38,273 nucleotides of DNA from Methylobacter sp. GTDB lineage: Bacteria > Pseudomonadota > Gammaproteobacteria > Methylococcales > Methylomonadaceae. The notes below the pieces were generated by a model. It was given only the letters and a program-made list of their open reading frames with translations. It was not told the origin of the DNA and searched no databases. The stretch is taken from contig JAURZV010000045.1 in assembly GCA_030653175.1 (NCBI GenBank), forward strand, positions 1 through 38,273. Direction: 5' to 3'. Shown here in pieces: positions 27,019 to 36,977 of the stretch. The translations under genes and the position numbers were made by a program. The number at the start of each line of letters is the position of its first letter. Position 1 is the first letter of the stretch.

Positions 27019-27118
27019 TAATGGAACGCTGATGACGCTGATAATTAAGATTAAATAAGATTTTTATCGAATTATCTGTGATCATCATATTCATCTGCGT
27101 TATCCGCGTTCTATTTTT
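27019..27118. repeat. 99-bp palindromic repeat, second copy, at the yhdP 3' end
   Basis: The reverse complement of 9755-9853 aligns along the whole length with roughly ten mismatches by eye. Here the terminal GGTAACTACTCAGC arms are absent. The last yhdP codons and its TAG stop (27111-27113) fall within the end of the repeat. Confidence 0.8.
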
Positions 27119-30100
27119 CTAACTGCTGCGTAGTTTCTTCTTGCTGCCGTACCCATGGAAAGTCGGTAATGCCATTCCAGGTTTTCTGCAATAATCCATC
27201 GTTCTTATGCATCGGAATGATTTCTGCTTTCCCCCAGGCGCCTTTTACCAGATATTGGGAACCAAAGAAAAATCCCTCCTGATCTTTACCCGTCAAAGAC
27301 CGCCCAACCAAGGCCGCTACTTTACCGATAATTGTACCAGCAATAGGCACGGCGTCGGCACTTTTAGGTGTGACATTGATAATATGATCAATAGTTTGAC
27401 TAACCAGATCGGTATCACCGCTGATGGCGATTTTTGCAGGAACCGCATCGACGATTAAATTATGAGTTGATGCGATTCCGCCTGCCAAATCAAAATGTCC
27501 TTTGATACTGTTAAACGTCAAACCTTCCTCATAAATATCACTAAAATCAAGCTGCGCCCGCTTTATCCACTGAGCCAGCGCCAGCATTCCCAATAGCCTG
27601 CCGAATCCGGGTTCTATACTTAAAATCCGTCCATTTTTGAGATTAATGTCCATCTGACCGTTCAAATCCGCCAACGAGAATTGATAAGGCGCCGCGCCCC
27701 ACTCAATGGCGAAATCAACAGCTGCGCTGGTTCCGGTCAAATCTTTGGTAATGCCCAGCTGTGCCAGCAGTTGCCCGGCGCGAGGCACTTCCAAATGGCC
27801 TCGGGCATGTGTTACCGATTGTTTTCCGCTTATTTGCCAGTCGCCCGACAAAACCAGCTTTTGATTTTCTCCGGCCAGCTCTACGTCCTTAAAACCCATA
27901 CCGCCCGGTATGCGCTTGGTTTCCAATGATAACCGCCCCAGATTAATCGACCGCCATAGCGTTTTTTGACTGGTGACCGTCAATAAAGGCACGAGCTCCG
28001 GCGATAACGTCTGTAGCGGATTTGCACGCGAAGCGCCCGAAAGGAGAGGAGCAGAAACAGCCGGGGAAGAGTCTTTCCATTCCATTTGTTTTAATGCCGA
28101 AAGATCCAGTAACTCCATGTCCAGACTAATTCTGTCAGTGTTTTTAAAGTCGGCAGGAATTTGAATGCTCCCCTTTGCGAACGAGCTGGCTATAGCACCT
28201 GCCCAAAAGTTGCCATTGTGCTTCAAAGCCAGGTCGAAAACGCCTATATCGGTTTTATTCCACAACGCATGATCGCTATGAATCTTCAGCTCCCTGACGA
28301 CTGCCGTGGATGGTGGAAGTGCCGCAATCGGTACGACTGCATGGATGCAGGAGGTAGAGTAACGCATGGAGCAGTTGCCGAAGGAACCGATACGACCACC
28401 AACACCCGCGCCTTGGGCAACAGCCAAACCCAACCAGTCTTGCAATGCCAACCGGCCACGGTTAATCTCCAGCTTTAATCCCGCATCCTGGATCTGGGCG
28501 ACCTCACCGGCACCCACCAGGATATGCCCTGAATAAATGGTCTTTTGCCTGGTATCCAACTGAATCGCCGCTTTCAGTTTATTGTCGTAATTTAGCAGCA
28601 CCGGTAATAACTGTTTATCGCCTAAGTTAAACGTCAACGACAAAGGTATTTTTTGTTCCCGTGTCTTAGCCAATGACTCCGGTAAATCCAGCGATACGCC
28701 GGACAACATCGACTCCACAACAAGCTCCGGAGCAGCATTCCCATAAGGCAATTCCAGCTTTAACCGATAATCTGTTGCCCCGGAAGCGATTTCCCACCAG
28801 GGCATATCAAATTGCGTCTGCAGGTCGCTAATCCCGGCGCGCCCCTCCACATTGACGGTGGTTCGACTCTCCGAACTTTTAATGTTGATCTGTATCGGAT
28901 TACCCAAGGCCACCGCATGAATGGTGTCGCTATAAACGCCCTGCTCGTTGAATTTGAGTTCGCCGTTAATTTTGCTGACCGACAAAGCCAGCGATTTTAC
29001 CGACAGTTTGGCGTCTTTCAATTGCGCCGCTCCATCGACTTTGGTTGGCGCTCCGTCAACCAAAGGGATTTTAAGATCCAGCCTTACCTGGGTATTTCCC
29101 AGCGGGGTAATGGCTTCCAGCAGCGAATCCACCGGCGAGCTCAGCGGAGTCTGCTGCATAAAGGCCAAAACCTGATCAATCCCGCTTTCAGCCTCGCCCT
29201 GAATCAGCAAATACTTGCTTTTATTCAATTTTGGAACAGTAACTTCGGCTTGTTTAATGATCACGTTACCGGATTTTCCTTGCCGGACATTCACCTTGAG
29301 ACTGTCCTGTGAAAACAGGACCTCGGCATTCATACCGGTTATATGAGGCCATTCCGGAGCGTATGACAAATCAAACTGTTCGCCATTAAATACAGCCTCA
29401 AAAACACCCGGCGCACTGCTAAACGGAAAATCGTTCAAATTACCATAGACCAACAAGCCGCCGTTGGTCATGCTGCCGCCAACAAATGCACGATCCAGCC
29501 AGGCAACGACTTCTTCATCCATAATGCCCACCGGCAGATAATGTTTGACCTCGCTCGCGTCTTCGCCGGCAAATGCACTTTGCATATCCATAAAAACGGG
29601 GCCCCCTGTTTTGGGAACATCTATCCGGAACCGGGTTTTGCTCTGAAAACTCAAGGAATCCAGCTCAATCATTGGACTGGATACAGACCAGGCATTTTCC
29701 GCCTGCTGCCAGTCGAGTCTGCCTTGAAGACGCTTGACAGGCAACACTTCTCGGAACAGATCCGGCGCTATCAGCCGGGCATCTTTAGTCGCAAGCGTAA
29801 TAACTCCCTGTTTTTCACTACCCTTTATTTGGCCGGTCAAATTCTCTATACCGGGAACTGACGACAACGGCCCAACGCCGATTTTGGCAAACCTGCCGTT
29901 CAGGGCAATCTCCTTTGCATCCGGATCGGCGAACAAGGAGAAATTCTCCAGCGTTCCTTGTAACCGGGCTTGCGCCAGTGTGTTAACCTGTTCATCCGGC
30001 AAGGGGGCGAAGAACTGCGCCAGCTCGGATGCTTCCTGCAAGTCCACTCGTTCAACATACAGCGCTAACTTATGTAAAGCAGTATCATCCATACGCTGCC

Positions 30101-31190
30101 CGGAAACGCTGAATGCTGCGGCAGGCCATTTTTTAACGACGCCTTTGGGATTATCCTGAGTTTCCAGTGAAAAATCGTTTACATCGAGTTGCCATTGATT
30201 GCTTGCGTCATTTAGTCTCCAGTGAAAGCGGGTTCTCAGTTGTTTAACCGAAAATTCCTGCTTATCCTGCCGAACCAGTGCCATCTGTTGAATTTGCGCC
30301 TCGACATCCATTGACATCAGCTGCGATTGCCGCCAATCGCCCCAGATTTTAAAGTCGCCGGTACCCGCATTGATATGTATTCGATCCCCGACTGAGGTTT
30401 GACCGAGCGCCACCAATTCAGGCAACAAAACGGCTTGCCCATCTATATAAACGCGACCCTGAATAGTTGAAGGCTCAAAAACGTTACCTTTAAAATCCAT
30501 AGATATTCTTAATGTATTGCCGACTTTTTTCGGCAACTTCATCAGCATATTGAGCCGATGATGCTCCCCCTTATTGCTGATTGCCAGATCTACCTCATTA
30601 AACAGCAGCGGTCGAGCATTGCTTATTTCATCCTGCCAGGTAATTTCGCTTTGCAAAACTTCGTATTTCCCGCCCTGCAATAGCCACTGCGGCTGTCCAC
30701 CGCTGGCTTTTAAACCGACAATAACAATACTACCGTCCTGTTGTCGTTTAATGGAAAGCTTGGCGCCCACCAACGTGACCCATGACGATGACAATAAATC
30801 CCTGCTGACCAGCATATCCAGTAAATCAATACCCAAGCGCATTTCATTGAACTGGATAGCGGGTTTTTCGTTCCCTGTAGAGGCGGCTGATGACAAACCC
30901 GCCCGGAGCGGATTTGCATGTGTAACGCCCGAAGGGGGACGGGCAGGGACAGTCCGGGATGAAATAGCGATGTCTTTTAACACCAGTTCAGGATTAAATC
31001 CGCGCATTTTCGCGCCCAGACGACCTATTGTTACCGGTGTGCCGACAAGTGCGCTGATATTGGTTGCCAAATCGGACTTATAGTGTTCAATCCCCAACAA
31101 TAGCAAGCGTACGCCAGTCAAGCCGATAGCTGCCGCAATCAAAGACCAGAAAATGAGATGCCGCGTTGCACGCTTAATATGATGGATCAC
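27111..31190 (-). CDS. yhdP: YhdP family AsmA-like protein (phospholipid transport)
   Basis: A 1359-aa envelope-spanning protein with an N-terminal membrane anchor (about 12-31), a long beta-groove region (DUF3971) and a C-terminal AsmA-like part. Enteric YhdP with TamB and YdbH moves phospholipids to the outer membrane. Gene order rng-yhdP-nit-tldD supports the assignment. The usual length is around 1270 aa; the excess fits at least three low-complexity segments that coincide with repeat DNA (27.99-28.09, 28.3-28.4 and 30.87-30.96 kb). The frame stays open through all three. The stop codon lies in another dispersed repeat. Confidence 0.92.
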   Translation of the reverse strand: MIHHIKRATRHLIFWSLIAAAIGLTGVRLLLLGIEHYKSDLATNISALVGTPVTIGRLGAKMRGFNPELVLKDIAISSRTVPARPPSGVTHANPLRAGLSSAASTGNEKPAIQFNEMRLGIDLLDMLVSRDLLSSSWVTLVGAKLSIKRQQDGSIVIVGLKASGGQPQWLLQGGKYEVLQSEITWQDEISNARPLLFNEVDLAISNKGEHHRLNMLMKLPKKVGNTLRISMDFKGNVFEPSTIQGRVYIDGQAVLLPELVALGQTSVGDRIHINAGTGDFKIWGDWRQSQLMSMDVEAQIQQMALVRQDKQEFSVKQLRTRFHWRLNDASNQWQLDVNDFSLETQDNPKGVVKKWPAAAFSVSGQRMDDTALHKLALYVERVDLQEASELAQFFAPLPDEQVNTLAQARLQGTLENFSLFADPDAKEIALNGRFAKIGVGPLSSVPGIENLTGQIKGSEKQGVITLATKDARLIAPDLFREVLPVKRLQGRLDWQQAENAWSVSSPMIELDSLSFQSKTRFRIDVPKTGGPVFMDMQSAFAGEDASEVKHYLPVGIMDEEVVAWLDRAFVGGSMTNGGLLVYGNLNDFPFSSAPGVFEAVFNGEQFDLSYAPEWPHITGMNAEVLFSQDSLKVNVRQGKSGNVIIKQAEVTVPKLNKSKYLLIQGEAESGIDQVLAFMQQTPLSSPVDSLLEAITPLGNTQVRLDLKIPLVDGAPTKVDGAAQLKDAKLSVKSLALSVSKINGELKFNEQGVYSDTIHAVALGNPIQINIKSSESRTTVNVEGRAGISDLQTQFDMPWWEIASGATDYRLKLELPYGNAAPELVVESMLSGVSLDLPESLAKTREQKIPLSLTFNLGDKQLLPVLLNYDNKLKAAIQLDTRQKTIYSGHILVGAGEVAQIQDAGLKLEINRGRLALQDWLGLAVAQGAGVGGRIGSFGNCSMRYSTSCIHAVVPIAALPPSTAVVRELKIHSDHALWNKTDIGVFDLALKHNGNFWAGAIASSFAKGSIQIPADFKNTDRISLDMELLDLSALKQMEWKDSSPAVSAPLLSGASRANPLQTLSPELVPLLTVTSQKTLWRSINLGRLSLETKRIPGGMGFKDVELAGENQKLVLSGDWQISGKQSVTHARGHLEVPRAGQLLAQLGITKDLTGTSAAVDFAIEWGAAPYQFSLADLNGQMDINLKNGRILSIEPGFGRLLGMLALAQWIKRAQLDFSDIYEEGLTFNSIKGHFDLAGGIASTHNLIVDAVPAKIAISGDTDLVSQTIDHIINVTPKSADAVPIAGTIIGKVAALVGRSLTGKDQEGFFFGSQYLVKGAWGKAEIIPMHKNDGLLQKTWNGITDFPWVRQQEETTQQLEK
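28017..28068. repeat. In-frame repeat unit in yhdP (copy 1 of GCGGATTTGCA family)
   Basis: AGCGGATTTGCA then CGCCCGAA with a purine-rich tail is shared with 30907-30957. On the yhdP coding strand both copies read as SG..(H/R)ANPL(R/Q), so both insert in the same frame and orientation. Confidence 0.7.
28334..28386. repeat. In-frame repeat unit in yhdP shared with the 36.9 kb palindrome
   Basis: About 52 nt beginning CGACTGCATGGATGCAGGAG and ending GAGCAGTTGCCG match 36927-36976 nearly base for base. On the yhdP strand they encode FGNCSMRYSTSCIHAVV, a Cys-containing stretch unlike the surrounding beta-groove sequence. Confidence 0.85.
30907..30957. repeat. In-frame repeat unit in yhdP (copy 2 of GCGGATTTGCA family)
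   Basis: Partner of 28017-28068. It encodes PARPPSGVTHANPLRAG near the N-terminal part of YhdP, in a segment lying between family-like sequence (LVLKDIAIS before, PAIQFNEMRLGIDL after). Confidence 0.7.
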
Positions 31191-36816: not shown

Positions 36817-36977
36817 GCTCCTCGGTAATTGCTCCTGCATTACTCTACTACACACCATCCATGGCGTTATGCAATATCTGCATTCACCACATCCATGTGG
36901 ATTATGTAGGTAAGGGGCGTGAGCACGACTGCATGGATGCAGGAGGTAGAGCAACGCAGGAGCAGTTGCCGAGGAGC
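36817..36977. repeat. Large inverted repeat (CATGGATGCAGG family)
   Basis: The left arm starts GCTCCTCGGTAATTGCTCCT and runs to CACACCATCCATGG (near 36863). The right arm is its imperfect complement, from ACTGCATGGATGCAGGAGG to GCCGAGGAGC at 36977. The right arm is the same sequence found inside yhdP at 28334-28386. It lies between the convergent fliW and panD. Confidence 0.85.

Follow-up and report, generated by a model that had tools for sequence, protein, structure and literature searches.

An in-frame insertion in Methylobacter yhdP contains a palindromic repeat of a probably mobile, REP-like family

The window, a 38,273-nt stretch of DNA from a Methylobacter species, contains yhdP, identified by its Pfam YhdP domain (PF13116, E=3.5e-217), and an intergenic pair of related repeats. 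The source genome is a 4.0-Mb draft of 109 contigs; its nearest named relatives in our genome collection are Methylobacter, M. tundripaludum SV96 among them. The repeat names used here (F1, F2 and F3) were coined in this analysis. The features are as follows:

27111–31190, minus strand: yhdP, the host gene, an open frame of 1359 aa
28298–28396, minus strand (the coding strand): whole in-frame insertion, GRIGSFGNCSMRYSTSCIHAVVPIAALPPSTAV, 99 nt or 33 codons, residues 932–964
28298–28333, plus strand: left 36 nt of the F2 repeat, interrupted by F1
28334–28381, plus strand: F1 unit of 48 nt, two hairpins flanking GTAG
28382–28396, plus strand: right 15 nt of the F2 repeat
about 36822–36869, minus strand: opposed, degenerate F1-like copy, part of an inverted repeat
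36926–36972, plus strand: intergenic F1 unit, 47-nt form

The reading frame of yhdP is uninterrupted across the 99-nt insertion and from 27111 to 31190; an earlier note on this DNA had stated that it stays open through the repeat. That note put the insertion at about 52 nt; an in-frame insertion is indeed present, but it is larger, with F2 (36 + 15 = 51 nt, 17 codons) split by a nested F1 (48 nt, 16 codons). Both F2 parts resemble the flanks that enclose F1 at four other loci (L023, L024, L026 and L124), and when joined they gave nine repeat hits spanning the junction. The near-identity reported between the yhdP stretch and an intergenic one is borne out by a 21-nt core, GCATGGATGCAGGAGGTAGAG, which occurs twice in the window (28339 and 36931) and in none of 100 shuffles. 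The description of the yhdP stretch as one arm of an intergenic palindrome holds only in part: the repeat is present in the gene, but each supposed arm is a whole unit and not half of a palindrome. The palindromic appearance arises because F1 at 36926–36972 faces a degenerate inverted copy, which yields an inverted repeat (36822–36972) with 32-nt arms that are 88% complementary.

Many matches between YhdP and its homologues were broken at about residues 932 and 965. We aligned 70 rows, comprising the window's gene twice and 68 others (some genes having been fetched twice), and left out L091, which is without a long ORF. The insertion was recognized by its absence from 66 of the 68 homologue rows, which hold 0–5 residues in columns 932–964; the two exceptions hold 31, in a decayed form (L033), and 18 (L032). 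The earlier note had proposed this alignment, naming conservation of the segment in distant YhdP proteins, or a frameshifted gene, as grounds against its reading; the segment proved to be missing from both distant and closest relatives examined, and the gene is open. The insertion is intact in the window, decayed in a more distant species (L033) and absent from the two closest (L034 and L035), a pattern that calls for loss, for a second insertion at one and the same site, or for exchange.

Fold prediction of YhdP residues 780–1110, with 22 sequences, gave a mean pLDDT of 66.5. Within this fragment, residues 142–183 fall below 50, and the insert (fragment residues 153–185) lies inside this stretch except for its last residues, between a predicted helix (137–151) and a predicted strand (186–198). 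The insert reads as a disordered, variable linker, although a lineage-specific segment has no alignment depth to inform such a prediction. Most likely, it is tolerated by the protein rather than useful to it. In yhdP of some relatives (L035, L036, L037 and L041), another in-frame insert is seen ~45 residues downstream of the F2/F1 site; it consists of all or part of NPPGADLHAQRPKGDGQGQxGM and is possibly another repeat family.

A search of the whole genome with the F1 unit, also proposed in the earlier note, returned 115 matches with up to three mismatches (53 forward, 62 reverse) against none for a reversed-pattern control. As had been claimed, F1 occupies both gaps and coding sequence, being found at intergenic sites, in yhdP and in other genes. 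We read 98 distinct copies, of which 95 could be placed at both ends; 39 units measure 47 nt and 49 measure 48 nt, 88 in total. The ends of the unit are CGACTG and GCCGA. As a single strand, F1 is predicted to form one hairpin on either side of GTAG, and compensatory changes are seen in both hairpins across the 88 units: pair 30–41 is C-G in 48 and T-A in 39, pair 27–44 is C-G in 84 and T-A in 3, and pair 6–15 is G-C in 71 and C-G in 7. The 48-nt consensus can be read without a stop in five of its six frames.

F1 sites share a short motif. Among 79 copies in the own genome with the standard left end, position −3 is G in 46, −1 is A in 72 and +1 is G in 65; in a relative (G020, n=74), −1 is A in 58 and +1 is G in 62. 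Entry is typically between A and G of GNA^GR. With F1 left out, the flanks in genes for MurE, a NirB-like reductase and Rep align gap-free with the nucleotides of orthologues; given this match of joined flanks to empty sites, entry causes no target duplication. Joined flanks rebuilt another dispersed repeat at 66 of 94 junctions, compared with 22 of 400 random A^G sites, in a database of fetched loci that is itself enriched near F1. F1 also enters its own copies, at GCAGGA^GGTAG, in eight contexts in the own genome and one in G020 (fuzzy pattern); by eye, a variant enters F1 at GGTA^GAG. Tandem arrays of the 48-nt form occur. Folding of joined flanks revealed no significant preference for hairpin loops (16 of 78 versus 15.1%, p=0.2), and we dropped a general hairpin-loop rule, claiming only a preference for other repeats. 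In F1 variants of 69–70 nt, the right hairpin contains a further GTAG hairpin, about CCAAAAGTAGGCGCTTTAGGCG (L122, L137, L150, L159, L173 and the right flank of L102); a CCAAAAGTAGGCGCTTTAGGCG-like stretch also lies 37 nt 3′ of a Y1_Tnp ORF (L102).

Y1_Tnp matches number 13 in the own genome and 35 in five relatives. We scanned 43 of these 48 loci (13 of 13 own, 30 of 35 in relatives; up to 1.5 kb on each side, less at contig ends) and found no F1 core beside the gene in any of them. On the evidence of these 43 loci, we rejected a linked Y1 transposase, as in RAYT-linked or REPtron repeats; the mobilizing enzyme was not found among them. With a looser pattern, a single weak match to the left half of F1 turned up near L108, and an F2-like stretch lies near L109. 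At L214, a 69-nt-type variant sits inside another hairpin, with an IS200-like gene ~250 nt away. Members of the 151-aa Y1 group carry inverted ends of their own, about 100 bp long. Three Y1_Tnp ORFs (L107, L108 and L110) adjoin dispersed repeats (GTAGGCCGGAATAAGCCGG type; GGAGTGCAAGCTTTGCTTGC type) and are candidate REPtrons of the own genome.

We interpret F1 as a non-autonomous, REP-like mobile element of 47 or 48 nt that sits mostly within other dispersed repeats, including copies of itself, and give this reading a probability of about 0.8. The element enters its motif without duplicating the target, and each in-gene event of the 48-nt form adds 16 residues. At yhdP, F2 (17 codons) carrying F1 (16 codons) would have added 33 residues to a predicted unstructured linker, F2 presumably having arrived before F1, as the nesting implies. 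The most likely mover, at slightly under even odds, is a Y1 HUH transposase of RAYT/TnpA-REP or IS200 type acting in trans on a single-stranded intermediate, because F1 has hairpins, a short asymmetric target and no duplication, and because REPs have published single-strand habits. TnpA-REP enzymes are described as cleaving at CT or CA (PMC8266576), whereas the ends of F1 follow A (A^C and A^G).

An unlikely but substantial alternative holds that the host itself spreads F1, by template switching or gene conversion at stalled forks that copies hairpin repeats into hairpin repeats, with no dedicated transposase. Such a process would suit the location of most junctions inside other repeats, the tandem 48-nt arrays and the lack of a linked enzyme at the Y1_Tnp loci scanned. 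The fixed ends of F1 and its target motif, however, point to a site-specific reaction, and entry into the non-repeated gene sequence of MurE, the NirB-like reductase and Rep also speaks against it.

Open frames surround many F1 copies in the own genome: 53 frames for 44 of 98 copies, many of them surely spurious. By hand, we selected 17 in-gene loci with the appearance of real genes for comparison with three relatives, leaving out matches below 55% identity. These relatives were G012, G010 and G020, the last a three-contig assembly that appears to be M. tundripaludum SV96. Steps of 16 or 32 residues relative to orthologues were seen at 11 of the 17:

MurE: F1 in frame, 16-residue step relative to orthologues
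NirB-like reductase: F1 in frame, step relative to orthologues
Rep helicase: F1 in frame, step relative to orthologues, unit also in G012
NifN: F1 in frame, 32-residue step
SAM methyltransferase: two units in the own genome, one in relatives
Transglycosylase-like protein: F1 in frame, step relative to orthologues
MurB: two units in the own genome, one in G012, at the N terminus and perhaps not translated, as the start may lie downstream
FlgJ-like protein (named from its Rod-binding and Glucosaminidase domains): unit in G012 and G020, none in G010
RpoS: one unit in the own genome, two in G012; G010 is without 15 residues there, its flank diverged
ATP-grasp/H4MPT-pathway protein: 32-residue step
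DUF2063 protein: 32-residue step

At three further loci (#26, #46, which is CcmI-like, and #49), the gap is visible from match coordinates only, and at #57 relatives have no unit but the flank has diverged. Locus #28 (L028) looked by eye like an insertion in a transposase gene; Pfam found only AsnC/NirDL-like domains, and we claim no gene there. Searches with pieces of ~150–160 residues turned up no duplicate of MurE or RpoS; the sole additional match for Rep was a paralogue of 31% identity. In-frame units in G020 include those in leucyl-tRNA synthetase (LeuS) and oligopeptidase A. All of these comparisons are of DNA and its translations.

Unit length differs between genes and other sites. For this comparison, the script excised each unit, which keeps the ORF criterion from favouring 48 nt, and a junction was called gene-like if an ORF of at least 60 codons lay on each side. 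Lengths divisible by three were found at 14 of 17 gene-like junctions in the own genome (p=0.015) and at 12 of 14 in G020 (p=0.00018); taken together, 26 of 31 gene-like junctions compare with 58 of 144 elsewhere (p=8.4e-6, a value that overstates independence owing to shared insertions). Thresholds of 80 and 100 codons gave the same direction. Within genes, then, the insertions that survive are mostly those whose total length is a multiple of three. The five exceptions, with 47-nt units, are L007, L130 and L152 in the own genome and L263 and L292 in G020. At L007, the unit frameshifts an ORF that by eye resembles IS21-type istA, and at L130 an N6_Mtase domain lies just before the unit, which seems in frame only together with the surrounding repeat. 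Two other 47-nt units (L271 and L262) lie within open frames of repeat-rich stretches. Orientation is biased too: among 30 of 175 units in frames of at least 60 codons on each side, some perhaps spurious, 25 are sense and 5 antisense (p=0.0003).

This sense bias, together with the recurrence of units at one position of a gene across several species (RpoS and FlgJ, for example), is what would be expected if the inserted peptides had been recruited for a function, such as a flexible linker or a regulatory tag, and selection on the peptide explained the in-gene copies. We consider this improbable. The host genes are unrelated, at least three frames are used, presence and absence vary between related species, and the YhdP site is a variable linker, so that tolerance is the simpler account. 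That intergenic repeats were mis-joined into genes during assembly or annotation is hardly credible, draft genome of 109 contigs notwithstanding, given that the frames are open, that other assemblies also have units in genes hit here (FlgJ in G012 and G020; Rep and RpoS in G012) and that the length bias recurs in a three-contig assembly.

Counting the own genome throughout, F1 is present in 22 of 23 genomes of the genus and in 31 of 61 own-and-related genomes (up to two mismatches each), and in 53 of 369 sampled genomes of the class. We accordingly rejected a restriction to methanotrophs. We sampled 20 stretches from three F1-bearing genomes outside the order (G143, G228 and G335). In G228 (L317), a hybrid kinase is 48 residues longer through three identical tandem units placed between its receiver and Hpt domains. 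G335 has three 2.47-kb stretches (L325–L327) that are 99% identical to one another, with F1 at an equivalent place in an open frame of each; in the one scanned, L325, this frame is an IS66 transposase. This suggests that the F1-bearing transposase was functional, if the copies arose by transposition, or that the function was supplied in trans. The sampled stretches of G143 held no unit in frame with 40 codons on both sides. We entertain, tentatively and with more doubt than confidence, a stronger reading in which F1 is a mobile expander of peptides: its 48-nt form phased to the code, nesting in itself, growing core proteins by 16 residues at a time in several gammaproteobacterial lineages, and moved by a site-specific single-strand recombinase outside the characterized RAYT types.

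The earlier note held such repeats to be rare outside a few lineages and knew of no description for this group. We too found no description of the F1 family or of a methanotroph case in the open-licence literature, where a text search with F1 unit sequences matched only off-topic papers, one string once each; the family nevertheless extends beyond this group, and the rarity needs qualifying. REPs are reported within genes of several bacteria, UvrD/Rep helicases included, with some families inside other palindromes (Di Nocera et al. 2013, PMC3733652), so that in-frame REPs outside Rickettsia were already published. The main text of that paper has no hit for 'methylo', and its sections 5, 6, 7 and 15 contain no stepwise comparison of sister species of this kind. 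Like the GTAG/CGTC REPs it describes, F1 has small hairpins, is mostly intergenic with some copies in genes, and has GTAG beside a stem. Those REPs have a single stem with a terminal tag, whereas F1 consists of two different hairpins separated by GTAG, lengthens proteins by 16 codons at a time and nests within other copies of itself. Relative to the GTAG superfamily, GTAG stands one base before the right stem, a different second hairpin lies on the other side, and the unit spans both; with ends CGACTG and GCCGA, F1 is not a CGTC REP.

F1 behaves like the Rickettsia palindromic elements (RPEs) in being a palindromic repeat found between genes and in frame within many unrelated ones (PMC10969869, PMC3733652). 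The figures quoted for RPEs are about 150 bp and ten families, in an intracellular Rickettsia (PMC10969869); on these descriptions F1 is set apart by its 47/48 nt and its occurrence in a methane oxidizer and other members of the class. With REPIN/RAYT systems (PMC3116915, PMC8266576) it shares non-autonomous GTAG hairpin DNA, high copy number and Y1 genes in the genome, but its two hairpins differ in sequence and the opposed pair at 36822–36972 is two units, so F1 is not a REPIN. Enterobacterial RU elements, MITE-like and 103–168 bp long (PMC2759123), are likewise small mobile sequences within genes, though longer than F1. A MITE of a DDE insertion sequence was rejected, as joined flanks match empty sites gap-free and CGACTG/GCCGA is not an inverted pair. 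The hairpins, target motif and absence of duplication fit a single-strand element of IS200/IS605 type, a class to which F1 may belong. In-gene REPs are thus already known, from Rickettsia and from Di Nocera et al.; new here is the F1 family, unusual in its choice of target and in nesting within its own copies.

In-frame insertion of repeats gives proteins new segments, rarely but in events that can be dated. F1 offers regular steps, empty sites in related species, housekeeping genes among those hit and at least one host with a named type strain, making testable both the tolerance of proteins for invading segments and the enzyme that moves REP-like DNA. Exact F1 cores also occur on three IMG/VR viral contigs (L234–L236).
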